Assembly (NCBI GenBank): GCA_025057345.1
Contig: JANWXX010000001.1
Location: 1 to 39,819 of the forward strand
DNA length: 39,819 nucleotides
DNA from: Polyangiaceae bacterium
GTDB taxonomy: Bacteria; Myxococcota_A; Polyangia; Polyangiales; Polyangiaceae
Reading direction: 5' to 3'
The notes beneath the pieces are model-generated. The model was not told the origin of the DNA and made no database searches. It saw only the letters and a list, made by a program, of their open reading frames with translations. Position numbers and translations under genes: made by a program. This document shows positions 2,850 through 21,893 of the stretch, piece after piece; positions within the stretch are counted from its first letter, which is position 1; each line of letters opens with the position of its first letter.

Positions 2850-5800
2850 ATGGCCCTCAGCAACCGCGAGCGCGTCGGCAAGGCCATAGACCTTCTCAAA
2901 CAGGGCCTGGGTCCATTTGTCGAGCGCGAGTTTAAGAATGTGTACAACGATCAAGTTCATGCCCAGGTGGTTCGACTGATGGGCCAGGATCGGCTTCTGG
3001 CCGACCGACCGATCTCCCAGTGGGACGCTGCAGCGCTTCTCCGAATCTTGTGGGAGGCGTGGAACGATGTCTTCCGGCAGACGCTCGGCCCAGCGGAGCG
3101 GACGCTCGTACGAGAGCTCCAGGACGTGCGCAACAAGTGGGCCCACCAGCAGCCCTTCTCCAGCGATGATGCCTACCGTGCACTCGACTCAACTGGGCGG
3201 CTCCTAGCTGCAGTCTCTGCGCCTGAGGCGCAAGAGGCCGAAAGGTTCAAGATGGAGCTTTTGCGCATACGCTTCGACGAGCAGATGCGGAACGAGAGGC
3301 GGAGGATGGCAGGCACGCCCATCGAAGGCCAGGTTCCAAACAACTTGAAACCGTGGCGTGAGGTGGTGACACCCCACGAGGATGTGGCAAGCGGTCGCTA
3401 CCAGCAGGCTGAGTTTGCTGCCGACCTGTGGCAGGTGCATGTGGGCGAAGGGACCGACGAGTACAAGAACCCGGTCGAGTTCTTTCGACGCACATATCTC
3501 ACAGAGAGCCTGAAGCGCCTTCTGGTCGGCGCCGTCCAGCGGCTGTCCGGTCAGGGAGGGGATCCGGTTGTGCAGCTTCAGACCAACTTTGGCGGTGGCA
3601 AGACCCACTCCATGCTGGCGCTCTACCACCTTGTCTCGGGAACCGCGCCGGGCGAACTCGTTGGCATCGATGGGGTGCTTGCGGAAGCGGGCGTATCGAG
3701 GCTCCCGACGGCACGTCGGGTTGTGCTTGTGGGGAACAAGATCTCCCCGGGCAACCCGGTGAGGAAGTCCGACGGTACCGTCGTTCGCACCCTCTGGGGG
3801 GAGCTGGCCTGGCAGCTCGGCGGCAAGAAGGCATTTGAGCGTGTGCGTGCAGACGATGAAAGGGCGACAAGCCCCGGGGATGCACTGCGTGAGCTTTTCA
3901 ACGAATACGGCCCGTGCCTCGTGCTCATCGACGAGTGGGTGGCCTATGCCCGCCAGCTCCACGATCAGAGCGATCTGCCGGCCGGCAGCTTTGAGACGCA
4001 GTTTACCTTCGCGCAGGCGCTTACCGAGTCGGCCAAGCTCGCCAAGAACTGTTTGTTGGTTGTCAGCCTCCCAGCATCCGATACCGCTGGCCTACCATAC
4101 ATGCAGGCGGAAGATGTCGAAGTCGGTGGTCAGCGGGGCCGCGAGGCACTTGATCGGCTGCGGAATGTGATCGGCCGGGTTGAATCGTCGTGGCGCCCAG
4201 CGAGCGCCGAGGAAGGCTTCGAGATCGTACGGCGGCGCCTTTTCAAGCCCTTGACCGATAATTCGCAATTCGTGGCTCGCGACATCGCGGCCCGCGCATT
4301 TTATGACTTCTACCGCACACAGCCGCAGGAGTTTCCCCCTGAGTGTCGGGATGCCGAGTATGAGAAGCGCTTGCGCGCGGCCTACCCGATCCACCCAGAG
4401 GTGTTCGACCGCCTGTACACCGATTGGTCGACGCTCGTAAAATTCCAGCGAACGCGGGGTGTGCTGCGCCTGATGGCGGCAGTTATCCACAGCTTTTGGG
4501 AGCAAGGGGACCGGAACCCGTTGATCCTGCCTTGCAACATCCCCATCGACGATTCCCGCGTCCAGTTTGAGCTTACGCGATACCTTTCGGACAACTGGGT
4601 TCCTATCATCGAGAGGGACGTTGATGGCCCAAGTTCCCTGCCATTGCGGCTGGACAGCGAGGTCACCAATCTCGGCAAGTTTGCTGCCTGTCGGCGCGTG
4701 GCAAGGGCGTTGTACCTTGGATCGGCGCCCACGTCCACGGCTGCGAACCGTGGGCTTGAAGATCGGCGGATACGGCTTGGATGTGTGATCCCGGGGGAAG
4801 CTCCGGCTGTGTTTGGCGATGCACTCCGGCGCTTGGCCGCTGCGGCCACCTATCTCTACCAGGATGGTCCTCGCTACTGGTACTCAACGCAACCCACTGT
4901 TACGAAGCTTGCAGAAGATCGTGCAGAGCTGCTCAAGCGCGATCCCGAGAAGGTAGTCCAGGAGCTGGAGAAGCGGCTGCGTGCCGACTTGCGCAAGGCT
5001 GGCGACTTTGCTCGGGTCCATCCCCTGCCGAGGTCTGGACAGGATGTTCCCGACGACCTTGACGCGCGTTTGGTGGTGCTCGGTATCGATCATCCCTACA
5101 GCAGAGAACCGAACAACCTAGCCGAGACGGAAGCGAAGGCGATCCTTGCTTCGCGAGGCAGTGCGCCTCGGATCTATGCCAATACCCTTGTTTTCCTCGC
5201 GGCGGATAAGACACGGTTGCAGGATCTGGACGAAGCGATCCGCCGATACCTCGCCTGGGAGTCGATCATCGCGGAGCAAACGATCCTGGACCTTTCTCCG
5301 CACCAGGTAAAACAGGCGGAGATGCAGCAGAGAGCCGTCGACAGCGTTGTAAATGCGCGCCTCCCCGAAACTTACCAGTGGCTTCTGGTGCCCACGCAGC
5401 AGAACCCTCAGGCCGCTGTGGAATGGCAGGCAATCCGTCTGACGGGCCAGGATACGCTTGCGGGACGGTCAAGCAAGAGGCTCAAGAACGACGAGTTGTT
5501 GGTGATGAGCTTTGCTGCTTCGCGCCTCCGTATGGAGCTGGACCGTGTGCCGCTCTGGCGTGGCGATCACGTTGCCATCAAGCAGCTGATCGACGACTTC
5601 GCTCGCTACCTCTATCTTCCGCGACTGAAAGAGCCATCTGTCTTGCTGCAAGCGATCCGAAACGGCCTCGGTCTCCTTACGTGGGAGCAGGATTCATTCG
5701 CTTTCGCAGATGAGTACGACGAGCTCAGCGGGCGGTACCGCGGTCTTCAGTTTGGGCGTCAAGTCAACGGGATTGAAACCAACGCCAAGGCTCTGCTTGT

Positions 5801-6187
5801 CAAACCGGAGGCTGCACGCCGACAACTGGAGCTGAGTGTGTGGCTGCACCGTTGACACAGGCTTTCCACAGCCCCGTCCCAGCAAACGCGCGGACCGACC
5901 ATCCGCGAGGAGCATTGCCGGGCCTACCGGGCATGGCATCACCACCTGCGCGCCCCAGGAGATTCCACGGTACCGTCACCCTAGATGCTACCAGGGTGGG
6001 ACGAGACGCAAGCAGAGTGGCTGACGAGGTCATCACGCATCTCAGCGGCCTGATGGGCGCACAGGTGAAGGTGATCCTTGAGATCGAGGTAGAGGTTCCT
6101 TCCGGGGTTCCAGAGAACGTGGTTCGAATCGTGACAGAGAACAGCCGGACATTGAATTTTAGTACCCATGGCTTCGAAACCGAATGA
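2850..6187 (+). pseudogene. DUF499 ATPase with N-terminal HEPN-like domain, frameshifted near its 3' end
   Basis: Predicted AAA-type ATPase partner of the DUF1156 methylase (COG1483/DUF499). The ATG at 2850 is chosen because AAGGAG sits about 8 bases upstream and the protein then begins MALSNRERVGKAIDLL; the open frame reaches back to 2733 without support. Residues 1-140 resemble the Swt1/HEPN-type domain, with the R-x4-H motif RNKWAH at 94-99. FGGGKTH (about 247-253) is the P-loop and CLVLIDEW (356-363) is Walker B. The main frame stops at 5855 after SVWLHR. The typical C-terminal domain, beginning RRFHGTVTLDATRVGRDASR, continues at once in the next frame to a TGA at 6185-6187. One missing base between about 5820 and 5850 (for example GAG-GCT read as GAGCT) would reunite them into a protein of about 1,110 residues, the size usual for the family. 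The first 1,001 residues may still be made as a truncated ATPase. Confidence 0.85.
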
Positions 6188-6205
6188 AGCGTGAGGGCCT
6201 TTGCA

Positions 6206-7081
6206 TCAGGGGCGCCAGGTGACGGTGTAGGTACCGCTGGCCGCGCGGAGGCCCTGGTAGATGACCCGCATCACCTGGTCGGTGGTGTACTTGCCGGTCT
6301 TGGATTGAACCAAGGCGCGGGTCTGGGGGTCTTCCGGGTCCGGGGGGTTCCGTGCCAGGTTGGAGAAGTCGGCAGAGGCGAAGAGGGGGGCGAGGGCCAC
6401 GCGGACCTCCAGGCGGCCCCCGGGGGACGGCACGAAGCGGGCCGGGATACCCCGTACCTGGCGGATCGCCGTGATCGGGGTGTTGTCCCGGTCCCCCGGC
6501 TTGGAGGCGGGGAGCCAGTCGTCGTCGAGGACGAGCCTGCCCCGGAAGCGCACCCGCTCCTGACCGCGCTCCGCCTCGCCGGCGACCTCCAGGGCGGCGC
6601 CGCTGATCTTCACGGTTTCTGGAGGAACATCCGCCGGGGGATAGAACCAGACCTCCGCGGAGCGCACCTCGTCCGTGGAGATCACCCCCCGAGCAGGGAA
6701 GGAGATCAGCGAGGGGGAGAGGGCGTCGAAGCGGACCCGCCCGAGAACCTCGCCGACGATACGGCCCTCACCCAGGTGGGCGCTGTGGGCCCGCGCCTCC
6801 CGGACAGGGAGCCAGCGTTGGAGGAAGGAGATGCCGCCGAGGGGAGCGATCGTGTTGAGGTAGAGAGGCCCCACGGTGAGGTCAGCCTGGGAGAGTGAAA
6901 CCGTCCATCCGTACTCGTTGAGGAAGGTATAGGGAACCTCTGGATTACGCTCGATGCCGCCGATGACCGCTTCGAATTCGAACTTCTCGCCGCCGGTGGT
7001 GCCGACGCAGGCCAGAGGAGCGCCAAGGAGGGAGAGGGCAAAGGAGACGAGAGCGGGGGTGGTGAGGCGAGGACGGGTCAC
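6206..7081 (-). CDS. Exported lipoprotein-like protein coupled to a TonB-dependent receptor
   Basis: A 291-residue protein of no recognised family. It starts with a hydrophobic signal segment (MTRPRLTTPALVSFALSLLGAPLAC); the cysteine after APLA could be a lipidation site, although proline at -3 makes the lipobox imperfect. The rest looks like a secreted mixed-strand protein rich in Trp/Tyr and Pro, without membrane segments. Its ATG overlaps the stop of the upstream receptor gene by 4 bases (ATGA), so the two are very probably translated together. By position it may be a periplasmic or outer-membrane accessory for the substrate the receptor takes up. It ends 18 bases from the oppositely oriented ATPase remnant. 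Confidence 0.75.
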   Translation of the reverse strand: MTRPRLTTPALVSFALSLLGAPLACVGTTGGEKFEFEAVIGGIERNPEVPYTFLNEYGWTVSLSQADLTVGPLYLNTIAPLGGISFLQRWLPVREARAHSAHLGEGRIVGEVLGRVRFDALSPSLISFPARGVISTDEVRSAEVWFYPPADVPPETVKISGAALEVAGEAERGQERVRFRGRLVLDDDWLPASKPGDRDNTPITAIRQVRGIPARFVPSPGGRLEVRVALAPLFASADFSNLARNPPDPEDPQTRALVQSKTGKYTTDQVMRVIYQGLRAASGTYTVTWRP

Positions 7082-9624
7082 GGGGAGTCGTCTAGGAAGA
7101 GGGTGAGGGTGCCGTAGACAGCTCGGGGCTCACCGGCGCTAAAATGGCGGGCGGCGACCTGGGTAGGGAGAAAGCCAGCGGTACGGAAGGAGGATGTATA
7201 GTTGAACTCGCTTAGGCGGTAGCGGCGGTCGAGGAGGTTGGTGGAGGTGACGCCGAGCTGAACCCAGCTCCAGCGGAGCGTAGCCGCCGCGTCGAGGAGG
7301 AAGATATCCTGAGAGCGTTCGTCGAAGGGAAGAGGGCGAGGTCCGACATAGGAAGCGCCGGCGCCAAGGGTGCCCCGGAGAGGCTTGCTCCCAAGGCGGG
7401 CGAGGCTCCCGGCGAGGACCGCGTCCAGACGGCCGACGACGTTCGGCGCGTAGGGGATGAGGAGCTTGGTATCCTCGAAGATGGCGCGGACCAGGGTGAG
7501 GTTGGCCGCGATGTCAAGGTACTCGGTGATCCAGCGGGTGGTGCCGGCCCAGCCGGTGCGGGAGGTGCCTTCCGCTAGGGTATTGCGGCCCTCGGTCTGG
7601 TTGAAGAACAGGTCGCGATCCACGAAGGTGCGGAAGAAGATGGAGCGCACCGAGAGGTTTCCACCAGCAAGCTCACCCTCGTAGGAGGCGCCGCCCTCGG
7701 TGGCGGTGGCGACAGCGAAGGGGGTATCGAGCCCTTGGTGGATGTACTGGGGATCAAGGCTGCGGACGCCAGTGCCCCGGGCCAAACTGAAAGAGAAGCC
7801 GGAGAAGGGGCCGACCAGGAGGGCGACCCGTGGCTGGAGCGTATCGGCAGCAGTGGAGGCGGTCTGATCGACGCTCCGGTAGCCGGTCCGGTCCCTCTGG
7901 AAGCATTCGGTGTCCGGGGGGTCGCCCCCGAAGCCAGACTGTACGGTGAGCGCGCAGCGGTTGTGGACCCGGTAGTGGAAGAGGTCACTGCGGACGCCGC
8001 CGCGGAGGAGCACCTTCGGCAGGGGGCGCATCTCGGCGTCGACGTAGAGGCCCAGGTTGGTGAGGAAGGAGGCCAGGTCCAGGTCCCGGCGGTAGGGGAT
8101 GTTGGTGCCTGCGCGGTTGCGCTGCTGGAGGGAGTCGACATCGTCGACGCGGGCGGAGTAGCCGAGCTCCAGGGAGTGCTTGCGGCTTAGGGTGGTCCAG
8201 GTTTTGCGGCCGCTACCGAGGGCTTGGAGGGTGAGGATCCTGGAGCGCTGGTCGATGAGGTCGCCGCGCTGGGGGTGGTCGGATTGCCAGGAGCGCTGGG
8301 GGTCCGCGAGGAAGCCGGTGAAGTTCTGCCGGAGGCGGAAATCGCGGAGGGTGAGGGCGCCGAACTGGGTCCAAGAGAAGCCCTGCTTGCTCTGCTCGAT
8401 GCGGAAGAGCAGCCCGTGACGAGTGGAATCCCCCCCTTGCTGCGGATCGTAGGTACCGTAGAAGTCGATGCGCCCTGCCTTCATATCGTCGACCCGGAGT
8501 ACCCCCGCTTGGTCGTAGTGGGTCGCGTAGGAAGTCGCCAGGATCCGCCAGCTCCCGCTGCTGCCCAGAGGACCTTCGTGGCTGGCCATGGCGGTCATGC
8601 GCCGAGCAGAACGATTCTGGCCAAACCCCTCCATAGAGAAAGCCTCGACGGCACCGAAGGTCTTGGGGCCGCCCCAGGAAGGCCCCCAGAGAAGCAGGGC
8701 GCGGCGGGAGCCGAAGGAGCCAGCGGTGACAGAGGCGGCGAGCCCCCGCTGCTCCAGGCCGAGGTCGTAGAGGGCACTACCTGCGACAGCGAAGTTGCCC
8801 TGCTGGGGGGCGAAAGGTCCCTCGATGACCCGAAGGGAGCGCACGACCTCCGGAAGGAGGTAGTGGGTGTCGACCAGGCCATTGCCGTGGACGTTGCCGA
8901 CCTCGTTGATGGGGACACCCTCGACCTTGAATTCGAGATCTTGCCCCTCCCGGGCATCGAAGCCTCGTAGGTAGATCTGGTAAGGGTGTCCTGCGCCACC
9001 CGTGTTGGTGAGGAAGATCCCGGGGGCTAGTCGGAGCAGGGAGGCTGCATCCTGCCGTGGCACCGACCGGAGCTTGCCTAGGTAGACCTCCACATCTCCT
9101 GCGCCACGGCTAGGCATCCGCCCCTGGGCTTGCACCACGACTTCGCCGAGGGACGCCTCCCCCGTGCTAGGGGGGGTCTGGCGGGGAGATAGAGAGGGAT
9201 CCTCCAGCGGAAGGGAGCCCTGCTCTTGGGATCTGGCCGCCTCCGAAGGTCGTAGGGCGGGGGGAGGCAAGGAGGGTGGCTCAAAGACGAGCGCCACCTT
9301 GACACGGCTTCGGATGGGTCGTCCATCCCGCGTAGCTGCGCGGAAGGTCCAGCGCTGCACAGTCTGGAGAGCAGCACGGTCGAACACCTCCCCGGCAGAG
9401 CCCACCACCTCGACTCCCTGGAGCTTCCCCGTTTCGTCAATTTCCAGGCGTAGCTCGACACGTTGGGGCTTTCCCGAAAGGGGGGCTTGCTCCGGGTAGA
9501 TGGGCGGAGGGCCCTCGAGCACCGAAGGGGGTGTATCCTGCTGGGCCCAGGTCAAGCTGCTCCCGAGGGCAAGGGCAGCCAGCAATGCCCCTGCGGCGCG
9601 GCGGGAGGGGCACACTACGGTCAT
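7078..9624 (-). CDS. TonB-dependent outer membrane receptor with N-terminal TonB C-terminal-like domain
   Basis: An 848-residue outer-membrane transporter. The ATG at 9624 is preferred: it overlaps the regulator's stop (ATGA) and opens directly onto a signal peptide (MTVVCPSRRAAGALLAALAL...AWA). The upstream extension in the same frame is coding sequence of the regulator gene. Residues 36-116 (PPPIYPEQAPLSGKPQRVEL ... FDRAALQTVQRWTFRAA) match the TonB C-terminal domain of energy-transducing proteins. After a proline-rich linker come a plug domain at 155-285 (EVVVQA, RQDAASLLRLAPGIF, IYLRGFDAREG, GVPINEVGNVHGNGLVDTHY) and a long beta-barrel ending with an aromatic-rich strand. The substrate is probably a metal or metal chelate, inferred from the Fur-family gene in front and unproven. 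The fused TonB-like domain is seen in some delta-type bacteria but is not the usual receptor layout. Confidence 0.9.
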   Translation of the reverse strand: MTVVCPSRRAAGALLAALALGSSLTWAQQDTPPSVLEGPPPIYPEQAPLSGKPQRVELRLEIDETGKLQGVEVVGSAGEVFDRAALQTVQRWTFRAATRDGRPIRSRVKVALVFEPPSLPPPALRPSEAARSQEQGSLPLEDPSLSPRQTPPSTGEASLGEVVVQAQGRMPSRGAGDVEVYLGKLRSVPRQDAASLLRLAPGIFLTNTGGAGHPYQIYLRGFDAREGQDLEFKVEGVPINEVGNVHGNGLVDTHYLLPEVVRSLRVIEGPFAPQQGNFAVAGSALYDLGLEQRGLAASVTAGSFGSRRALLLWGPSWGGPKTFGAVEAFSMEGFGQNRSARRMTAMASHEGPLGSSGSWRILATSYATHYDQAGVLRVDDMKAGRIDFYGTYDPQQGGDSTRHGLLFRIEQSKQGFSWTQFGALTLRDFRLRQNFTGFLADPQRSWQSDHPQRGDLIDQRSRILTLQALGSGRKTWTTLSRKHSLELGYSARVDDVDSLQQRNRAGTNIPYRRDLDLASFLTNLGLYVDAEMRPLPKVLLRGGVRSDLFHYRVHNRCALTVQSGFGGDPPDTECFQRDRTGYRSVDQTASTAADTLQPRVALLVGPFSGFSFSLARGTGVRSLDPQYIHQGLDTPFAVATATEGGASYEGELAGGNLSVRSIFFRTFVDRDLFFNQTEGRNTLAEGTSRTGWAGTTRWITEYLDIAANLTLVRAIFEDTKLLIPYAPNVVGRLDAVLAGSLARLGSKPLRGTLGAGASYVGPRPLPFDERSQDIFLLDAAATLRWSWVQLGVTSTNLLDRRYRLSEFNYTSSFRTAGFLPTQVAARHFSAGEPRAVYGTLTLFLDDSP

Positions 9625-10049
9625 CCCTGGAGGCAAGCGAGGCACCGGCCCCGGAGCTGTACCTCGAGCACATCGCCCAACCCCGGCTTGACCGACACAG
9701 CCTGCCGGGGCAAACAGCGGACTTGGCCACACTCCGTGCAGACCAGGTACGGGTGCAGCTTATGGGCGCGCCCCCCTTGACGAAGCAGCTCAAAACGGAA
9801 GATTCCATCGGGCATCCGAGTCCGGAGCAGGAGCTTCGCCTCTGCCAGCACCATCAGGTTGCGATAGACCGTAGCCCGATCCATCCCCGTGGTGACCAGC
9901 TCATCTGCCAGCTCCCCGTGACTGAGGGGACGGCGCGATGCCCCAAGGGCCTGAAGCACCGCCAGCCTCCGCACGGTCACTCGTAGCCCACGTTGCTCCA
10001 GCAAGGATCGGAGCCTTGGATGGTTGGCCTTGCTGCGTTCCGGGGTCAT
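9621..10049 (-). CDS. Fur-family metal-responsive transcriptional repressor
   Basis: A 142-residue DNA-binding regulator of the Fur/Zur/PerR family. The winged-helix recognition segment is MDRATVYRNLMVLAE (56-70). Metal-binding features follow: H96 and H99 (RAHKLHPYLV), then CTEC (C104, C107) and CLAC (C136, C139), the paired CxxC structural zinc site. I take the ATG at 10049; an in-frame TTG at 10055 is the alternative. It is the first gene of a coupled operon with the receptor and lipoprotein downstream, suggesting it represses its own operon when metal is plentiful. The sequence does not show whether the metal is iron or zinc; the TonB receptor fits either. The perfect dyad at 10051-10065 directly before the start is a candidate autoregulatory operator. 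Confidence 0.88.
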   Translation of the reverse strand: MTPERSKANHPRLRSLLEQRGLRVTVRRLAVLQALGASRRPLSHGELADELVTTGMDRATVYRNLMVLAEAKLLLRTRMPDGIFRFELLRQGGRAHKLHPYLVCTECGQVRCLPRQAVSVKPGLGDVLEVQLRGRCLACLQG

Positions 10050-13513: not shown

Positions 13514-14004
13514 CAGGGGCAACTCACTGGGATGGGCGTGCTGGTCACTAGCGTCGTTTTGCCCCGGGCTCCATCGAGGATCGTCCCGGTGTAGCGCACC
13601 TGCCCTGCAGCACAGAGGGCACCTATAGGCACCGGTTTGTCGTAGGCGAAGGTGTATGCATGGCGATGGCTAGAGCCAGGCTCGACCCGGAAGGAGGTTT
13701 TCATGTCGGCCTGGATCGGCAAGGTTGCCAGCAGCGTCTGCCCGCCGGAGGAGTCGACCACGGCAAACTGCTGCACGGCGACCTCGGAGCTGCCGGAAGC
13801 ATACTCGCCCAGGCGCAGCACAAGGGTGAAGGAGCCCTCCGGAATACCTTGAGGAGCTTCCGCAGTACCAAAGGGAGATTGTTTGATCGAGAGGGAGGCT
13901 TCCTCAATGGAGGCGGTGACCTCCAGCTCCTTGACATCGGGTACACAGGCAGCCCCCAGGAGGAAGATGAGGGTGAGAGGAAGGGTAGGGCGAGGGAGAT
14001 TCAT
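13513..14004 (-). CDS. Putative lipoprotein of unknown function
   Basis: A 163-residue exported protein. The signal peptide MNLPRPTLPLTLIFLLGAAC ends in a GAAC lipobox-like site, so the mature protein would begin at Cys20. The remainder (PDVKELEVTASIEEASLSI...) is a beta-rich domain with a further cysteine pair near the end (LCAAGQ and SCP). No family is recognised. The ATG overlaps the stop of the OmpA/TSP3 gene by 4 bases, and its own stop touches ruvC, so it belongs to one transcription unit with them. Confidence 0.75.
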   Translation of the reverse strand: MNLPRPTLPLTLIFLLGAACVPDVKELEVTASIEEASLSIKQSPFGTAEAPQGIPEGSFTLVLRLGEYASGSSEVAVQQFAVVDSSGGQTLLATLPIQADMKTSFRVEPGSSHRHAYTFAYDKPVPIGALCAAGQVRYTGTILDGARGKTTLVTSTPIPVSCP

Positions 14005-15908
14005 TGGAGGGGGGGAGGGGTGATGCCGTTGCGACGAGCCTCGTCGCAGACTAGCTGAACATCGGTCGGCTTACCGTCGTTGATGACAATCTTGAACTCG
14101 ACGCGGCGATTTTTCTCGAAGGCTTCCGCGGTGGCACCTGGGTCGACTGGGCAGAAAGAGCCGTAACCTATGGCTCGGAGGCGCTTGGGATCGATCCCGC
14201 GGTTGACCAGGGCCTTCATGACGGAGTTGGCCCTGTCCTTCGTCAGCTTGAGGTTGAGGGTCTTGCTACCCCGGGCGTCGGCATGGCCTTGGATTTCAAT
14301 GAGCTGGAATTCCGGGTGATCCTTGAGGGTGGTGGCCACTGCGTCGAGAAGTTGGTTGGACTCCGGGCGGATTTTGGCGGAGCCCGTTTCGAACTGGATC
14401 TTCTCCAGAATCAGGATGCTGTTGTCTTGAATGACCACGGGCCCGGTACTGTCAGGGCACCCGTCCTCGTCTTGGTGGTCGTTGAAAGTTTCCGCTTCGT
14501 TGGGGCATTTGTCCCGGACATCGGGGATGCCGTCGCCATCGTTGTCCGGGTCGGGGCACCCATCTTCATCCTGGAATTTGTCGAAATCTTCTGGTTCATT
14601 GGGGCAATTGTCGTTGACGTCGAGGATACCATCCTTGTCGTTGTCCGGGTCGGGGCAGCCATCCTCGTCCTCGAAACGATCCACATCCTCGGGTTCGTTG
14701 GGGCACTTGTCCCGGGAGTCAGGGATGCCGTCTTTGTCGCGGTCGCGGTCGTCGACGTCGGGGCAACCATCCTCGTCCTTATAGCCGTTCTGGATCTCAG
14801 GTTCGTTGGGGCACTCATCCTGGACGTCAGGGATACCGTCCTTATCGTTGTCTGGGTCGGGGCATCCGTCCGAGTCCTCGAATCCGTCTTTGTCCTCGGG
14901 TTGGTTGGGGCACTGATCCTCGTCGTCCAGGATGCCATCGCCGTCCTGGTCTGTGATGGAAGGCTCGAAGAGGAAACCGATGAAGCCTCGCTGGTCTGCC
15001 GCCATATATCCATCGCCAATGCGTACACCGCCGCCCAGCATCAAGTACGAGTTCTTCTCGACGAAGATTTTGAGACCTCCGATCACCTCTTGGGACAAGG
15101 CCACGGGGGCTGTCGACGTTCCGTCCAGCTGCCGGGCAAGGTAGGTTTCACCGATGAATTCCAGCTTGTCCAGGGCTCGTACTGCCATCGCAGCCCCAGC
15201 GGTTGCCAGGGCCTTGCTTGACTCGAAGCGCCCCCCCCGGAGCTGATCGAAGCGGGTCACCCCCCCCGGATTGCTCCCCCGGTAGCCGACGTTGACTCCG
15301 AGCCGTACCGCACGCTTCCCGAAATGCTTCTCGATAGCGAGTTGGGGCCAGTACCAGGGGCTGGGGTCAGCTCCCAGGTTCCGGGGGTCGCCTAGGGGGT
15401 AGCCGCCCTGGACGAGGAGCGCCAGGCCCACCGCCTGGGTGGGCCGGAGCAGGTTGAGTTTAAGGTGCAAGGCAGCGAAGCCGAACTTTTGTGAATCGAG
15501 CCGCTGAGAGTCGTAGACGTTGCCGGTGGCTCCCACCTGCTCGACCCCCTCCCCACCGAGGAGATTCACCGGCAAGTGGACTCCGAGGACCAGTCGCTGC
15601 GTGATTCCCACGTTGAAGCTGAAGGTGCCCTGGAACGAGTGGGAAATCAGCGCATCGGCGCCATACCCCTTCCGGAGCCGCATCAGTTTGTGTCCGTAGT
15701 CGGTCACCAGGCCGAAGCTGATGTTGCCGGAGCCTAGGGTGTCGGTGCCATTGACGGCAAAGAACCCCTTGGAATCGATGGCCGGGCGAAACAGGTGAGT
15801 GTCGAGGCCGGGGCCATTGAAGGAAGGTACGCGCTCCTGCGCCCAGGTAGGCCCGGACAAGGCCGCGAAGGCGGCAAGGATCGCCAGGCCAATCATGCGT
15901 GTGCGCAT
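14001..15908 (-). CDS. OmpA-family outer membrane protein with five thrombospondin type 3 repeats
   Basis: A 635-residue cell-envelope protein. The signal peptide MRTRMIGLAILAAFAALSGPTWA is followed by a predicted outer-membrane barrel (to about residue 315). Five Asp-rich thrombospondin type 3 units follow at about 319-486 (DQDGDGILDDEDQCPNQPE and variants), which bind calcium in this family. The C-terminal OmpA domain (about 498-612) includes IQFETGSAKIRPES, EIQGHADARGSKTLNLKLT and the NRRVEF end motif that contacts peptidoglycan. The arrangement is common in Myxococcota and Bacteroidota and links the outer membrane to the cell wall. First gene of the run OmpA > lipoprotein > ruvC > lolA. 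Whether the barrel has a transport or adhesive role cannot be told. Confidence 0.92.
   Translation of the reverse strand: MRTRMIGLAILAAFAALSGPTWAQERVPSFNGPGLDTHLFRPAIDSKGFFAVNGTDTLGSGNISFGLVTDYGHKLMRLRKGYGADALISHSFQGTFSFNVGITQRLVLGVHLPVNLLGGEGVEQVGATGNVYDSQRLDSQKFGFAALHLKLNLLRPTQAVGLALLVQGGYPLGDPRNLGADPSPWYWPQLAIEKHFGKRAVRLGVNVGYRGSNPGGVTRFDQLRGGRFESSKALATAGAAMAVRALDKLEFIGETYLARQLDGTSTAPVALSQEVIGGLKIFVEKNSYLMLGGGVRIGDGYMAADQRGFIGFLFEPSITDQDGDGILDDEDQCPNQPEDKDGFEDSDGCPDPDNDKDGIPDVQDECPNEPEIQNGYKDEDGCPDVDDRDRDKDGIPDSRDKCPNEPEDVDRFEDEDGCPDPDNDKDGILDVNDNCPNEPEDFDKFQDEDGCPDPDNDGDGIPDVRDKCPNEAETFNDHQDEDGCPDSTGPVVIQDNSILILEKIQFETGSAKIRPESNQLLDAVATTLKDHPEFQLIEIQGHADARGSKTLNLKLTKDRANSVMKALVNRGIDPKRLRAIGYGSFCPVDPGATAEAFEKNRRVEFKIVINDGKPTDVQLVCDEARRNGITPPPLQ
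14451..14954 (-). repeat. Tandem repeats encoding thrombospondin type 3 modules
   Basis: About five degenerate units of roughly 100 bases each encode DGCPDPDNDKDGIPDV..CPNEPE-type modules. The repeat is coding, not a CRISPR array: the units differ, the period follows codons, and there are no unique spacers. Confidence 0.85.
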
Positions 15909-15977: not shown

Positions 15978-17306
15978 TTGCGCTATTCTGCCTTCCCTCG
16001 TCGATCCTCAGCATCCCGTCAAAGTGCCATCCTCCTGCTGTCCGTGGTCTGTGCTTCTGCCGCAGTGGCTCAGGAACGCCCTACCCTTGCAGGTACTTGG
16101 AACGCCAGCCCCCTAACCGAGGCGTGGAACTTGGGGGATTGGGGGGAGGCCTGCGGTCCTCGTCCTACCCCCCGGGGCGTGGGCGGTGGCGTGGTGGCCA
16201 TTGCCGAGTCTGGGGGTGAGCTGACCTTTAGCGGTGGAAGTTACCCGCGCACCAACGGGTGCTACGAGATGGGTGGAGGCATCTATGTTCTCTCTCACTC
16301 AGCCTCGCCTCGGGGCTGGCGCACCACCTGCGGCACCGCTCCTGGCGACCCTCGGCGCGCCACCATCATCACTACCATCACTGCCACGGACAGGCTGATC
16401 TCCTTTGATGAAACGGGACAGTACCAGTTTCTGATCCAGGGGCAGAACTGTACCGCCAGTGTCCGCAGGAGCCGGACATACACGTTGATTCGCCGCCAGG
16501 GAGAAGAAGTGCCACCGACAGCCACGTCCGTTGTGCCTCCAGCTACCTCCATAGGGAAGACGGCCCCTGAAGCCCCGAAAGCAGAGGCTAGGCCGGCACC
16601 TTCGTGTGACCATCCTGGAGAGCCCGCGCGGATCGAGCTTCGCCCGGGGCGCAAGGTGCTCAAACCCGGCGAAACATTTTCTGCAAAGGCATTGCTGCTG
16701 GACGAGGCGGGGTGCCAGCTGGGAGGAACCCTAGCCTGGTCGGTACAACCTGTGGGGGCCGGTGTGACTGTGGGACCGACAGGGCTGATCTCCGTGGCGC
16801 AAGGTGCTCGTGAAGGAGAAGTGACGGTGCTGGCCGGGGTTAGTGGCAAGGCGGCCCGCATGATCGTGGAGGTGGTATCCCCAGAGCGCTATGCACAACT
16901 GTTGGCAGCAGGGACCGAGCGGAGGGGAGAAGATGAGGTGGCTGTGGCTGTGCTGGCAGCTGGGAGCGTGGGTTCCTCGGAGGCGGTGGGGCAGGATGAC
17001 TCAGGGAAACGCCGGATGATGTTCGCCGGCGTGGTTGGGGGGGTGGTCATGGTGCTAGTGGGGGTAGGGGTGGGAATGATGAAGCGGACCCGCCCTGAAG
17101 AGGAGTTGGTAGAGGAGCTGGTCCGGACAGAGCCGACCCAACAAGTGGTGAGGAAGAAGCGGGTCGTGGTCAAGGTGGCTGCATCCGCAGCGCTCTATTG
17201 TCCCTTCTGCAAGCGGGGGTACTCTCCAGGGCCTGCTTTCTGCCCAGAGGACGGTACGAAGTTGGAGGCGAACCCGAACTGGAAGCACCCTGGAGCCGGA
17301 CCTTGA
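15978..17306 (+). CDS. Membrane protein with Ig-like (Big-2-like) region and C-terminal zinc ribbon
   Basis: About 442 residues; no named family. The start is uncertain. The frame opens earlier, inside the oppositely oriented OmpA gene; I choose TTG 15978 because it gives a normal signal peptide (RYSAFPRRSSASRQSAILLLSVVCASAAVAQ). Residues 35-175 are a Cys-containing exported region. About 215-300 is a bacterial Ig-like domain (IELRPGRKVLKPGETFSAKA ... GLISVAQGAREGEVTVLA). A single membrane helix is at 347-368 (MMFAGVVGGVVMVLVGVGVGMM). The basic C-terminal tail carries YCPFCKRGYSPGPAFCPEDG (C408, C411, C422), a zinc-ribbon-like motif expected to face the cytoplasm. The layout suggests a protein linking the periplasm to a cytoplasmic partner. 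The next gene on the same strand also carries a cytoplasmic zinc ribbon. Confidence 0.7.
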   Translation: MRYSAFPRRSSASRQSAILLLSVVCASAAVAQERPTLAGTWNASPLTEAWNLGDWGEACGPRPTPRGVGGGVVAIAESGGELTFSGGSYPRTNGCYEMGGGIYVLSHSASPRGWRTTCGTAPGDPRRATIITTITATDRLISFDETGQYQFLIQGQNCTASVRRSRTYTLIRRQGEEVPPTATSVVPPATSIGKTAPEAPKAEARPAPSCDHPGEPARIELRPGRKVLKPGETFSAKALLLDEAGCQLGGTLAWSVQPVGAGVTVGPTGLISVAQGAREGEVTVLAGVSGKAARMIVEVVSPERYAQLLAAGTERRGEDEVAVAVLAAGSVGSSEAVGQDDSGKRRMMFAGVVGGVVMVLVGVGVGMMKRTRPEEELVEELVRTEPTQQVVRKKRVVVKVAASAALYCPFCKRGYSPGPAFCPEDGTKLEANPNWKHPGAGP

Positions 17307-17419
17307 CCGCAAGGGCGCCACAAGCGATGGATCCCCCGGTTGGGTTGCACGTCTAACTGAGACAACAGCTCCGCCGTTCTTCCCTCCCCAACGTGGACTA
17401 GACTACCCTGAAGGTCGCG

Positions 17420-19039
17420 ATGAAGATCACGTGCTCCTCTTGCTCCGCCAAGTACACCATCGCCGACGAGAAAGTCCGCGGTCGAACCGTTAAGATCAAG
17501 TGCAAGAAGTGCGGGGCAACGATCACAGCCGGTCCAGGGACAGAGGAGCTGGCAGGGGCCAGTGCCGAAACTAGCCCCTTCGTTCAGGCGGGCGTTCAGG
17601 CGGGCGGAGAGTGGATGGTCAACGTAGGGGAGGGCGACCAGCGCTCCTTGTCGGTGAAGCAGGTTCTTGAGCTCTACCAGCAAGGTGTGATCTCTGACGA
17701 AACCTACGTGTGGCGGGATGGAATGTCCGGGTGGCTGCCTCTAGCCTCTATCCCTGAGATTGCTTCGATGCTCCCTGCTCGGGCCCCCGCTGCCCCCTCC
17801 GAGATGGACGACGGGATGCCTACCATGATGGCGCCTGCCTTCGGTGTTCAGCCTGCCGTTTCTGCTGCTCCTTTGCCAGCAGTCGAAGCGCCGTCTCCAG
17901 CTCCAGCAGCCGCACGACGTGCTTCCTCCAAGGGGCGTGATCTCTTTGCTCCCGCAGATGATGCGGTAGCTGCCGGCTTTGCCACCCCCACCTCTCCCTC
18001 CAGACCACCTCCACCTCGTCGCCCCGAGCCCCCTGCCCCCGGGATGATGAACAGCGATGAGGCTTCTGGCATCCTCGACATCCGAAAGCTCCAGGGGGCC
18101 CTCGAGGCCAAAGCAGATGCATCAAAGAAGAAGGACGAGAAGGTCGACGACATCATGAACCTGAGTGGTGGCGCCCTTTTCTCGTCCCCGATGGTTTCTC
18201 CTGACCTCAACGCACTGGCTCCTCCCGACCTCTCGGCACCACCACCCCAGGAGCCAGAGCCTCCTAAGCCTGTCGCTCTTGCCGCTACCCCAACCCCAGC
18301 AGCGCCGACGCCTGCCGAGCAGCCCAAGAAGCCCAAAATTGCGTTGCTCGCTCTGGGGGGCGTTGCCCTCCTGGGGCTAGGTATCGGCGGTACTGTGCTG
18401 GTGATGAATCGTCAACAGGGCGGTGAGACGGAGAGCAAGACCGCTGCGATGGCCTCCGCCGACCCCGAGAAGAAGGGCGATAGCAGGGCCAAGGCGGATG
18501 AAAAGAGGGACGAGCCTAAGATCGAATCTTCTCACCACCATGAGAAAAAGGACGACAAGAAGACCGCGGAGGCGGAACCCGAACCTCCCCCTGGCAAGGA
18601 GCTGACCCCAGAGGAGAAGAAGCGCCGGGACGAGGCCTTCAAGAAGAAGAAGGAAGAGGAAAAAAAGAAGAAGGAAGAGGAAGAAGCAAAGAAGAAGGCC
18701 AAAGAAGAAGAAGAGGCGAAGAAGAAGGCTGAGGCGGAGAACACCGCAGCCGCAGCCGCTCCTGGTGGCGACAAGCCCTTCGATCGCGCCGCCGCTAACT
18801 CCGCGCTCAGCTCCATCGCTGCTTCTGCTGCAAGCTGCAAGAAGCCGGATGGTCCCACCGGCTCCGGTAAGGTTGCGGTCACCTTCGCTCCTTCAGGCAA
18901 TGTGACCACCGCCAACATTGAGGGCTCCTTTGCTGGAACTAGCGTCGGAAGCTGCGTGGCCGCGCGCTTCCGTGCTGCCAAGGTTCCCCCCTTCTCCGGG
19001 AGCCCCGTCACCGTCCGTAAGACCTTCACCATCAACTGA
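17420..19039 (+). CDS. GltJ/AgmX-like protein: zinc ribbon, GYF domain, membrane helix, TonB-like C-terminus
   Basis: 539 residues. The N-terminus is a CxxC/CxxC zinc ribbon (C5, C8, C28, C31; MJ0042 type). It is followed by a GYF_2-like domain at about 64-119 (EWMVNVG...SVKQVLELYQQGVISDETYVWRDG...WLPL). Then come a long Pro/Ala-rich linker, one membrane helix at 307-329 (IALLALGGVALLGLGIGGTVLVM), a highly charged Lys/Glu coiled coil (about 395-440), and a C-terminal domain at 451-539 (FDRAAANSALSSIAASAASC...GKVAVTFAPSGNVTTANI) of the AgmX/PglI or TonB-like kind. In Myxococcus xanthus GltJ (AgmX) has this layout, and its zinc-ribbon and GYF domains contact MglA in the gliding machinery. A role in motility here is inference; many Myxococcota carry several such paralogs. 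A GAAGG ribosome site precedes the ATG. The other glt genes are not in the window. Confidence 0.8.
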   Translation: MKITCSSCSAKYTIADEKVRGRTVKIKCKKCGATITAGPGTEELAGASAETSPFVQAGVQAGGEWMVNVGEGDQRSLSVKQVLELYQQGVISDETYVWRDGMSGWLPLASIPEIASMLPARAPAAPSEMDDGMPTMMAPAFGVQPAVSAAPLPAVEAPSPAPAAARRASSKGRDLFAPADDAVAAGFATPTSPSRPPPPRRPEPPAPGMMNSDEASGILDIRKLQGALEAKADASKKKDEKVDDIMNLSGGALFSSPMVSPDLNALAPPDLSAPPPQEPEPPKPVALAATPTPAAPTPAEQPKKPKIALLALGGVALLGLGIGGTVLVMNRQQGGETESKTAAMASADPEKKGDSRAKADEKRDEPKIESSHHHEKKDDKKTAEAEPEPPPGKELTPEEKKRRDEAFKKKKEEEKKKKEEEEAKKKAKEEEEAKKKAEAENTAAAAAPGGDKPFDRAAANSALSSIAASAASCKKPDGPTGSGKVAVTFAPSGNVTTANIEGSFAGTSVGSCVAARFRAAKVPPFSGSPVTVRKTFTIN

Positions 19040-19227: not shown

Positions 19228-20016
19228 TTATTGCACCCACTCGTCCCCATCGGGGGGAGCGTCGTCGAGCTGGGGAGGACGTCGCCGGAGCAGCTCGGCG
19301 GCAGCGACGCGGACCGGGGCATTGGCATCGGTGATCTCATAGACCAGACGTAGCTCATGGTGGACGAGGAGCAGCACCATGGGAACGGCAACCTCCGGAG
19401 GGGTAGCGGGGTTGAGCACAAGGGCCATGCGGACCCGAGGGCGAGTGGACCAGCGGACGTTGCGGGCGATCTCCCCGAGGATGTCGGGAAAATTGGGCCG
19501 TCGTGCGGCGATCCGCAACACGTCGTCCTCGGTGAGCCTCGGATTGCCTAGCAGCATGCGGATTACGTCCGGGTGAGGATCGCGGAGCAGACGGTCAAAA
19601 GCACGGCGATCCGGGCGACGAGCAAGAGATTTGCGCTCCCCTAGGGAGAGGGAACGGTCCGCGCCCTGGGGCAGCGCCCGAGCTTGGGGATCATCCACGT
19701 GGGGCTGGTAGGTGGGCCACCGTAGGAAGCGATCCAGGGAGAGCAGCGAGCCTGCAGCAGCCTCCTCCCGAAGACGCTGGGCCAGTTCCGCTGCGCCGTC
19801 GTGGAGCAGGGCACGGATCACCGACATCAGCACAACGCGGGCTTGAGGCGACGCCTGCTCTGCCTCCTGGCAGAGCTGGTTGAGGGCACGAGCCGCCTCA
19901 GGGAGCGGGGCACGGTAGAGCTGCTCCCGCACCCAAGCGTCCCGCATTGGGAGATCGACTAGGGCAAGGGCCCCCGTGCAGAGTGTGTCGTAGTGCAGTA
20001 TGGTGCCATCGGCCAT
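19228..20016 (-). CDS. HEAT-like / leucine-rich-variant repeat protein of unknown function
   Basis: 262 residues, almost entirely helical, with no signal peptide. Recurring short helix pairs such as FDRLLRDPHPDVIRMLLGNP, LTEDDVLRIAARRPNFPDIL and RWSTRPRVRMALVLNPATPP resemble HEAT or LRV-type repeats that bind other proteins. I know of no function for the family. The ATG at 20016 shares one base with the stop of the upstream methionine/folate gene (TGATG), with an in-frame TTG at 20019 as alternative. The two genes are probably co-translated, although a functional link is not obvious. Confidence 0.7.
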   Translation of the reverse strand: MADGTILHYDTLCTGALALVDLPMRDAWVREQLYRAPLPEAARALNQLCQEAEQASPQARVVLMSVIRALLHDGAAELAQRLREEAAAGSLLSLDRFLRWPTYQPHVDDPQARALPQGADRSLSLGERKSLARRPDRRAFDRLLRDPHPDVIRMLLGNPRLTEDDVLRIAARRPNFPDILGEIARNVRWSTRPRVRMALVLNPATPPEVAVPMVLLLVHHELRLVYEITDANAPVRVAAAELLRRRPPQLDDAPPDGDEWVQ

Positions 20017-21893
20017 CAAGGATCGAGGAAGCCATCGATGACCTCCAGGGCAAGTTCATAGCGCTCCAGCGGAGGCATGATGTAAGCGCCAGCGACCCGG
20101 TGCTTGACGGCGGCGAGCATCTCCCGAGCGATGGCGACGCCCTCGCGACGGGCATCCGGGCCAGAGCCTGCCTTGCGCATGCGCTCTCGGATAGGCTCGG
20201 GGATCTGCATCCCGGGCACCTCGTTGTGAAGGAACTCGGCGTTGCGGTGGCTGGCCAGGGGAAGCAGCCCGACGAGCACCGGCAGGTCAAGGGGCGCAAT
20301 ATCGTCAAGGAAGCGGTTAAGAACCGCCGGATCGTAGACTGGCTGAGTCATCACCAACTCGGCCCCTGCGGATTTCTTTATCCGGAGCCTACGGAGCTCC
20401 CGGTCGTAGTTCATGGCCGCAGGCTCGGCTCCGGTAGCCAGCAGGAACGAGGTGGGGTGCCCTATCGCACGCCCTCCTGGATCAAGCCCCCGGTTGAGCC
20501 CGGAGGCCAGCCGCAAGATACCTACCGAATCTAGGTCGTAGACTGCGGTAGCGTCAGGGAACTCGCCCATGCGAGGCGGATCGCCGGTGATGATGACTAG
20601 GTTGCGGATCCCAAGGGAGTGAGCGCCTAGGAGGTGAGCGAGCTGTGCGAGGAGGTTTCGGTCGCGACCACAGACGTGAAGGATGGTTTCGATTCCGAGC
20701 TGCTGCTGCATTTGCACCGCGAGAGCCAGGTTGCTCATACGCGCCTGGGCCCGGGCTCCGTCGGCGATGTTGATCACGTCCACCCCAGCCGAGGTAAGCA
20801 TGCGAGCTGCCTCCACGGGGCGGGTTAGGTCGAGGCCGATGGGTGGGTTGACTTCGACGGACACCACGAAGCGCTTACCCAGCTTGGCCGCGAACTTGCT
20901 TTTCTCCCCTTTAGGAGTCGGATTGACCCCCTTCGGTGGAGGCGGAAGCCAATCGACCTCAACGGCGGGGTGTTCCTCTGTAGGGTCCGGTTGAGAGGAT
21001 GTGCTGGCCTCCATGCGGGCGGCAGCCGCGATCTTCTTGATGTGCTCAGGGGTGGTGCCGCAGCAGCCGCCAACAAGCCTAACGCCAAGCTTGTAGAAGC
21101 GACGCGCGAAGCGGAGAAAGTAGTCAGGGGTAGAAACGTAGATCAGCCGGTCATCGACCTTGTGAGGAAGGCCGGCATTGGGCATCACAGAGATCGGCAG
21201 GCCGAGGCCCATGAGCTTCTCAGCAGCGTCGAGGACAATCTGGGGGCCGACGGAGCAATTGAGGCCGAGACCGTCGGCACCGAGGTCACGGAGGCGCTGC
21301 CCGACGGTGGCAACGCTAACGCCGTCGACCAGCTCGCAGCGTTCGTTGGGGGAAACCTGGACGAACACTGGGATTGTCCCAGCGACGGACCGAGCTGCCC
21401 GAAGCGCCAGCTCCGCCTCCAGGGACTGGTGCATGGTTTCGATGAGGAGTACATCCACACCGGCTTCGACCAAGGCTTCAGCTTGCTCCCGGAAGGCATC
21501 CCGCACCTGCTCTCGCTCCTCGGCAGAAACACCCAGGAGGGGCTGGCCGGTGGGACCTATGGCACCAGCGATGTAGGCAGCACCGTGGGCAGATTTCCTG
21601 GCGATCTGTACCGCAGCGAGGTTGATCTCCCGCACCTTGCCTTCGAGCCCATGACGGTGGAGGCGGAACCGGTTAGCACCGAAGGTGTTGGTTTCGATGA
21701 CCTGGGCGCCTGCACGAAAGTAAGCCTCGTGGATGCGGTAGATCAGCTCAGGTCGAGAGAGATTTAGCTCCTCGTAGTTGATGTTGAAGACGACCCCACG
21801 CTCGTAGAGCTGGGTACCCATAGCACCGTCAGCCACGAGAGGACCGGCTTGAAGCGCCTGGAGGAAAGGCAAAGAGGTATCCACCGAGGGCAT
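20016..21893 (-). CDS. Bifunctional homocysteine S-methyltransferase / 5,10-methylenetetrahydrofolate reductase
   Basis: A 625-residue fusion. Residues 1-295 form the homocysteine methyltransferase barrel (LVADGAMGTQLYERG, ETNTFGANRFRL, GAIGPTG), with the zinc-binding cysteines in LNCSVGP (C213) and GGCCGT (C277, C278). Residues about 330-625 form the methylenetetrahydrofolate reductase barrel (VSVEVNPPIGLDL, INIADGARAQARMSNLALA, LVIITGDPPRMGE, ELVMTQPVYDP), which uses FAD. The two halves would make 5-methyl-THF and methylate homocysteine to methionine. The layout is like Bacillus YitJ. The cobalamin domains of MetH are absent. Divergent from the glycosyltransferase gene, with 93 bases between; no riboswitch is evident there. 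Confidence 0.93.
   Translation of the reverse strand: MPSVDTSLPFLQALQAGPLVADGAMGTQLYERGVVFNINYEELNLSRPELIYRIHEAYFRAGAQVIETNTFGANRFRLHRHGLEGKVREINLAAVQIARKSAHGAAYIAGAIGPTGQPLLGVSAEEREQVRDAFREQAEALVEAGVDVLLIETMHQSLEAELALRAARSVAGTIPVFVQVSPNERCELVDGVSVATVGQRLRDLGADGLGLNCSVGPQIVLDAAEKLMGLGLPISVMPNAGLPHKVDDRLIYVSTPDYFLRFARRFYKLGVRLVGGCCGTTPEHIKKIAAAARMEASTSSQPDPTEEHPAVEVDWLPPPPKGVNPTPKGEKSKFAAKLGKRFVVSVEVNPPIGLDLTRPVEAARMLTSAGVDVINIADGARAQARMSNLALAVQMQQQLGIETILHVCGRDRNLLAQLAHLLGAHSLGIRNLVIITGDPPRMGEFPDATAVYDLDSVGILRLASGLNRGLDPGGRAIGHPTSFLLATGAEPAAMNYDRELRRLRIKKSAGAELVMTQPVYDPAVLNRFLDDIAPLDLPVLVGLLPLASHRNAEFLHNEVPGMQIPEPIRERMRKAGSGPDARREGVAIAREMLAAVKHRVAGAYIMPPLERYELALEVIDGFLDP

Follow-up and report, generated by a model that had tools for sequence, protein, structure and literature searches.

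GltJ (AgmX), a component of the Agl-Glt gliding complex of Myxococcus xanthus, is built from an MJ0042-type zinc ribbon followed by a GYF domain, a single transmembrane helix and a TonB-like end. A passage of one review names GltJ among the MglA effectors (PMC12288465), and a passage of one survey confines gltJ to Myxococcales and Bdellovibrionales (PMC3169522). We analyzed a stretch of 39,819 nucleotides (hereafter, the window) from a Polyangiaceae bacterium (assembly GCA_025057345.1, contig JANWXX010000001.1, positions 1 to 39,819), in which two neighboring genes, here called P1 and P2, encode membrane proteins with zinc ribbons. P2 displayed the GltJ-type order of ribbon, GYF domain, helix and TonB-like end, the last domain scoring under its own cut-off, whereas P1 had an architecture for which we found no description. 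Comparison across the order showed that the pair is a conserved, undescribed two-gene module combining a new architecture (P1) with a GltJ-like paralogue (P2). In the window, both genes lie on the + strand, 113 bases apart, with the following features, P1 containing an immunoglobulin (Ig)-like domain.

15978..17306, + strand: P1 gene, 442 residues from a TTG in the open reading frame (ORF) listing; signal peptide, beta barrel, BIG2-type Ig domain, helix and zinc ribbon
15978..16073, + strand: P1 signal peptide, residues 1-32; hydrophobic at 12-30, modeled helix at 12-27, cleavage site judged by eye
16077..16505, + strand: P1 periplasmic barrel domain at the N terminus, residues 34-176; nine beta strands, with invariant W55, C59, C95, C118 and C158 (alignments of 85 and 79 sequences)
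16605..16886, + strand: P1 BIG2-type Ig-like domain, about residues 210-303, with C210 and C246; profile and fold matches
17016..17072, + strand: P1 transmembrane helix, residues 347-365; hydropathy 2.41, modeled helix at 342-370
17193..17267, + strand: P1 C-terminal zinc ribbon, residues 406-430; C408-x2-C411...C422-x2-D425
17420..19039, + strand: P2 gene, 539 residues in the ORF listing
17420..17524, + strand: P2 N-terminal zinc ribbon, residues 1-35; Zn_ribbon_4, 52.2 bits (cut-off 30.3)
17648..17758, + strand: P2 GYF domain, residues 77-113; GYF_2, 38.4 bits (cut-off 25.8)
18347..18403, + strand: P2 transmembrane helix, residues 310-328; hydropathy 2.13
18443..18775, + strand: P2 charged periplasmic linker, rich in K and E, of TolA-like composition; partial TolA_full match at residues 342-452, 23.5 bits, under the cut-off
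18848..19033, + strand: P2 C-terminal AgmX/PglI (TonB-like) domain, residues 477-538; NF033768, 20.5 bits, under the cut-off of 40

The conservation of the pair was examined in 144 genomes of the order and 282 genomes of the phylum. The P1 search matched 100 of the 144 order genomes; the matches included five reduced P1s and two Ser/Thr kinases (recognized by eye; L132, 3215-4861, and L133, 2794-4473) that matched solely through an N-terminal ribbon of P1's type. Taking one P1 locus from each other order genome with a match gave 99 loci, or 97 after the two kinases had been dropped; the window itself, 15 loci reached through P2 matches and six loci outside the order stand apart from this count. 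P2 lay next to P1 on the same strand in 74 of the 97 loci, the contig ended in 11, and P2 was not adjacent in 12. P2 thus adjoined P1 in 74 of the 86 loci in which the next gene was visible, and this conservation supports the pairing in the proposal made originally from the sequence alone. Outside the order, P2 was adjacent in one of the six P1 loci and absent next door in one, while four lay at contig ends. At the level of the phylum, the window P1 used as a single query found matches in 35 of the 282 genomes and a profile of the barrel alone in 37, in both cases mostly within the same order. The P2 head was matched in 143 and the P2 end (its last 89 residues) in 141 of the 144 order genomes, because several paralogues are present per genome.

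For five of the 12 order genomes in which P1 had no adjacent P2, candidate P2 genes were retrieved. Four of these (G137, G128, G135 and G141) carried a full P2, with ribbon, GYF domain and the same C-terminal domain, on a separate contig, and the fifth (G022, locus L227) had, about 5 kb from P1 on its contig, a P2-like gene lacking the C-terminal domain. In a P2 tree, which was built on few columns and in which the fork uniting all P1-linked P2s was not starred (93/93), all five unlinked candidates fell among the P1-linked P2s, the window P2 grouping with two of them (97/88), and the short-tailed paralogues and a further GltJ-like gene of the source genome fell outside. A paralogue (L184, 8587-9909; genome G000, contig C88) had a ribbon, a GYF domain, a helix and a short Cys-rich tail replacing the TonB-like domain; L148-L150 and L152 were alike.

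Two conserved genomic settings accompanied the pair. The first, common in the window's own family, is represented in the window by the following gene.

14001..15908, - strand: divergent neighbor of P1, a TSP3-OmpA outer-membrane protein (Pfam)

Such an OmpA gene stood opposite P1 in at least 36 of the 97 order loci, 27 of them with P2; the count is a lower bound because stop-to-stop frames overlapping P1 were left uncounted. In the second setting, found in other families, P1 lay directly behind etfBA in 38 of the 97 loci, 32 with P2 and six at contig ends, with etfA-P1 gaps of mostly 20-160 bases. Neither setting was common to the whole P1 family in these loci, and no further conserved neighbor emerged, the next clusters being limited to at most 20 loci (a TetR-like gene), shadow frames aside. 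These settings suggest an alternative in which the two genes are merely co-inherited or co-regulated, with P1 active in, for example, the handling of outer-membrane proteins or the metabolism of electron-transfer flavoproteins, and P2 in a process of its own. The recurrence of both settings and the short etfA-P1 gaps speak for such an arrangement, as does the presence of P2 behind etfA without P1 in L154 and L155. However, the setting varies while the pair persists, and an unlinked P2 was still found in the four genomes fetched as a check. We consider this alternative unlikely. The pair outlasts its surroundings, and this speaks for a functional link more strongly than simple synteny could.

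The modular make-up of P1 pointed to the part of the protein that matters next to P2. Reduced P1s consisting of the helix and three ribbons, without periplasmic domains, still adjoined P2 (L127-L131, L146, L147 and L153), and the P1 of L151 resembled this form by eye; the single-sequence P1 search had missed the reduced P1s beside P2 in four loci (L146, L147, L151 and L153). The persistence of P2 beside these proteins points to the ribbons. Conversely, two P1-like proteins of distant families (L220, 5144-6241, and L221, 5753-6772) had a barrel, an Ig domain and a helix but no ribbon and no adjacent P2. Loss of the ribbon together with absence of P2, and loss of the periplasmic part with P2 kept, would agree with the ribbon having a function beside P2, on small numbers and with the ribbon-loss case coming from one genus. 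A GYF ligand was sought in the P1 cytoplasmic linkers, where PPP occurred in 14 of 85 proteins against 9.7 expected by shuffling and PPG followed by a hydrophobic residue occurred in one; these counts do not support the linker as a GYF ligand.

Sequence rules also indicated on which side of the membrane the ribbons lie. The helix at residues 347-365 is the only hydrophobic helix of P1 downstream of the signal peptide. Within 15 residues of it, K and R were more numerous after than before the helix in 64 of 85 relatives, equal in 13 and fewer in eight, and the part of P1 assigned to the periplasm had an even number of Cys (six or eight) in 73 of 85, as expected for disulfides, which the barrel probably contains. 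The charge bias and the even Cys count suggest that P1 is C-in, and P2 is predicted to be N-in because no hydrophobic segment precedes its ribbon and it has one helix only. With these orientations both zinc ribbons would face the cytoplasm, where they are best placed and where the original prediction had put them. Nothing requires P1 to extend to the outer membrane, and the earlier label of a transenvelope pair is unproven with respect to P1.

P1 itself combines domains that have separate precedents. Its reading frame runs from the TTG at 15978, uncertain as a start, to the stop at 17306; a TTG is found at the matching position in the closest relative (locus L164, 66% identical). In that locus (5396-6923), the P2 frame is broken inside the stretch coding for the zinc ribbon, either through an assembly error or in reality. 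A Pfam scan of the window P1 matched no family, Big_2 included, and we found no paper on such a protein in the open-licence literature, in agreement with the earlier view, to which the first architecture was not known as a described system. The signal peptide, Ig-like domain, helix and C-terminal ribbon recognized at that time were all confirmed; the barrel preceding the Ig domain had been overlooked.

Modeled alone, residues 34-176 formed a nine-stranded barrel with a predicted local distance difference test score of 93.4 and a predicted template modeling score of 0.86, and the columns of W55, C59, C95, C118 and C158 were constant in 85 of 85 aligned P1s. The best solved likeness was the fatty-acid-binding protein FABP1 (Z 7.8, root-mean-square deviation (rmsd) 3.3 over 103 residues), a score in the range of a mere common arrangement; retinoid-binding proteins, nitrobindin and the PknI sensor domain ranked just after it, the last at a low score (Z 6.6, rmsd 5.1 over 111). 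Unlike calycin-type barrels (fatty-acid-binding proteins, nitrobindin), the P1 domain has four invariant Cys residues, and a Foldseek search with residues 34-176 gave no match below 0.001. From the model the domain may be called calycin-like at most, and the lack of a clear match does not establish that its fold is new. The assignment of the following domain as Ig-like of BIG2 type is firm: it matched LigA both by profile (expectation value (E) 3.5e-5) and by fold (Z 10.5, rmsd 1.8 over 86 residues), and C210 and C246 were present in at least 90% of the 85 aligned P1s. In contrast to BIG2 proteins such as LigA and S-layer proteins, P1 carries a single copy, placed between barrel and helix in a bitopic inner-membrane protein. 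The C-terminal ribbon of the window P1 has three Cys and an Asp (D425) at the fourth position, and among 178 ribbons of 85 full-length relatives this position was D in 160, H in 14, C in three and A in one. Zinc-ribbon Pfam models matched many P1 relatives, though none matched the window P1; the double zinc ribbon model DZR was found in 72 of 85 members at E of 0.1 or less, the window protein being among those without a match.

P2 was compared with GltJ and with TolA/TonB-type arms. The domains ascribed to it earlier held up, Zn_ribbon_4 and GYF_2 exceeding their cut-offs and the end domain remaining sub-threshold; MJ0042_CXXC was also over its cut-off (35.1 bits versus 20.9). Like TolA and TonB, P2 has an N-in helix, a charged periplasmic linker and a small C-terminal domain. 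Unlike them, it gave no match to Pfam TonB_C at E up to 1. The TonB-type helix needs a His residue for coupling to ExbB/D, and the helix segment contained a His in only two of 79 adjacent P2s. P2 shares its domain order with GltJ, but it reached 55 bits against the cut-off of 450 for the GltJ equivalog model (NCBIfam NF033761), has a shorter linker between ribbon and GYF domain, and has P1 as a partner gene. No gene in the source genome (5.0 Mb in 720 contigs, 84% complete) or in the 282 phylum genomes reached the NF033761 cut-off, which we never saw passed. Another gene in the source genome scored higher than P2, at 79.3 bits, its ribbon and GYF domain aligning to GltJ positions 1-45 and 143-208 with a spacing longer than that of P2. 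Around this gene no glt cluster was seen, since among nine proteins scanned only the gene itself had a Glt match, and its neighbors either matched proteins such as histidine kinases, GatA and a Ser/Thr kinase or had no match.

These comparisons bear on a second alternative, in which the pair would form part of a machine for gliding or polarity: P2 would act like GltJ and bind MglA or its partners through the ribbon and linker, and P1 would provide an additional anchor. The shared order of ribbon, GYF domain, helix and TonB-like end, the partial match to the GltJ model, the naming of GltJ as an MglA effector (PMC12288465) and the limited distribution of gltJ in the passage cited (PMC3169522) all favor it. 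Conversely, the low score, the better-scoring gene elsewhere in the genome and the shorter linker set P2 apart from GltJ, and the recurrent neighbors of the pair were OmpA and etfBA genes, loci on which the Glt models were not run. In addition, a search of the source genome for an MglA-type (Roc-family) GTPase with PF08477 found none over the cut-off and one match below it, in a frame of 1049 residues, in a genome that is 84% complete and with no MglA-holding genome as a control. The link to MglA and gliding suggested by the original prediction is weakened by these results, and we regard this explanation as improbable.

Least probable of all is a third alternative, which makes P1 a periplasmic sensor in its own right that communicates through its ribbons with Ser/Thr kinases or with other proteins carrying this type of ribbon, P2 being a bystander: the kinases that surfaced in the P1 search and the likeness of the barrel to ligand-binding folds, including the low-scoring PknI sensor domain, point that way, but reduced P1s without the sensor part still adjoin P2, and the likeness to the kinase ribbons is weak evidence because small modules of this kind are common.

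The reading that we prefer takes P1 and P2 as two subunits of one inner-membrane device coupled in the cytoplasm, either directly or through a shared partner, and we give it about an even chance. It draws on the domain order, on the long-lasting gene pairing and on the cytoplasmic side of the ribbons as predicted from sequence rules; the disulfides, the physical contact between P1 and P2, the direction of signaling and the ligand are inferred. P1 would be exported so that its disulfide-bearing barrel, carried on the Ig stalk, folds in the periplasm as the likely sensing or binding end, and its one to three zinc ribbons would be held just beneath the inner membrane. P2 would keep its ribbon and GYF head in the cytoplasm and send its TonB-like arm into the periplasm. 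Most likely, the P1 ribbons would then dock to the cytoplasmic head of P2, or to a protein also bound by P2, and this docking would couple the state of the envelope to a cytoplasmic assembly. A bolder form of this proposal, tentative and on balance doubtful, is that the pair constitutes a new trans-envelope sensor/transducer, in which P1, as a receptor made of barrel and Ig domain, controls the cytoplasmic head of the GltJ-like P2 via membrane-tethered ribbons, without the Agl-Glt motor or MglA.

Several observations weigh against such a device. P2 was not adjacent in 12 of the 86 assessable order loci, and in the distant families f36 and f54 it was adjacent in none of seven P1-like loci, one of which lay at a contig end. 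The earlier interpretation had held that wide occurrence of P1 without P2 would count against a joint function; on this point, P1 mostly had P2 beside it within the order, but not in the 12 unpaired loci or in the distant families, and the interpretation as a whole is partly supported. The gap between P1 and P2 was 60 to 466 bases in 79 adjacent cases, so that tight translational coupling is not seen. The number of ribbons per P1 ranged from one to three across relatives. Finally, the ribbon was lost in two of the seven distant P1-like loci, and the other five distant P1s retained ribbons without a P2 neighbor, which limits the correlation between ribbon and P2.

In seven loci of distant families (L216-L221 and L140), P1 was followed by a CinA/MoaB-like gene (recognized by eye) in place of P2. 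Two further genes of the window encode composite proteins. On the - strand at 7078-9732, a protein of 884 residues carries a TonB_C domain (residues 76-151) ahead of a TonB-dependent receptor plug (222-318) in one chain, and at 20016-21893, also on the - strand, a homocysteine S-methyltransferase is fused to a methylenetetrahydrofolate reductase.

GltJ has so far been regarded as one component of gliding. In the present pair, a GltJ-type paralogue is kept beside an undescribed membrane protein, and this pairing spans several families of the order in two gene settings. The P1 barrel adds a widespread periplasmic domain that has no Pfam match in the window protein. If P1 and P2 work together, zinc-ribbon/GYF arms would serve beyond gliding, in a small two-gene system, and if the sensor/transducer reading is true, the GltJ-type arm would be a general myxobacterial part used with different controllers.

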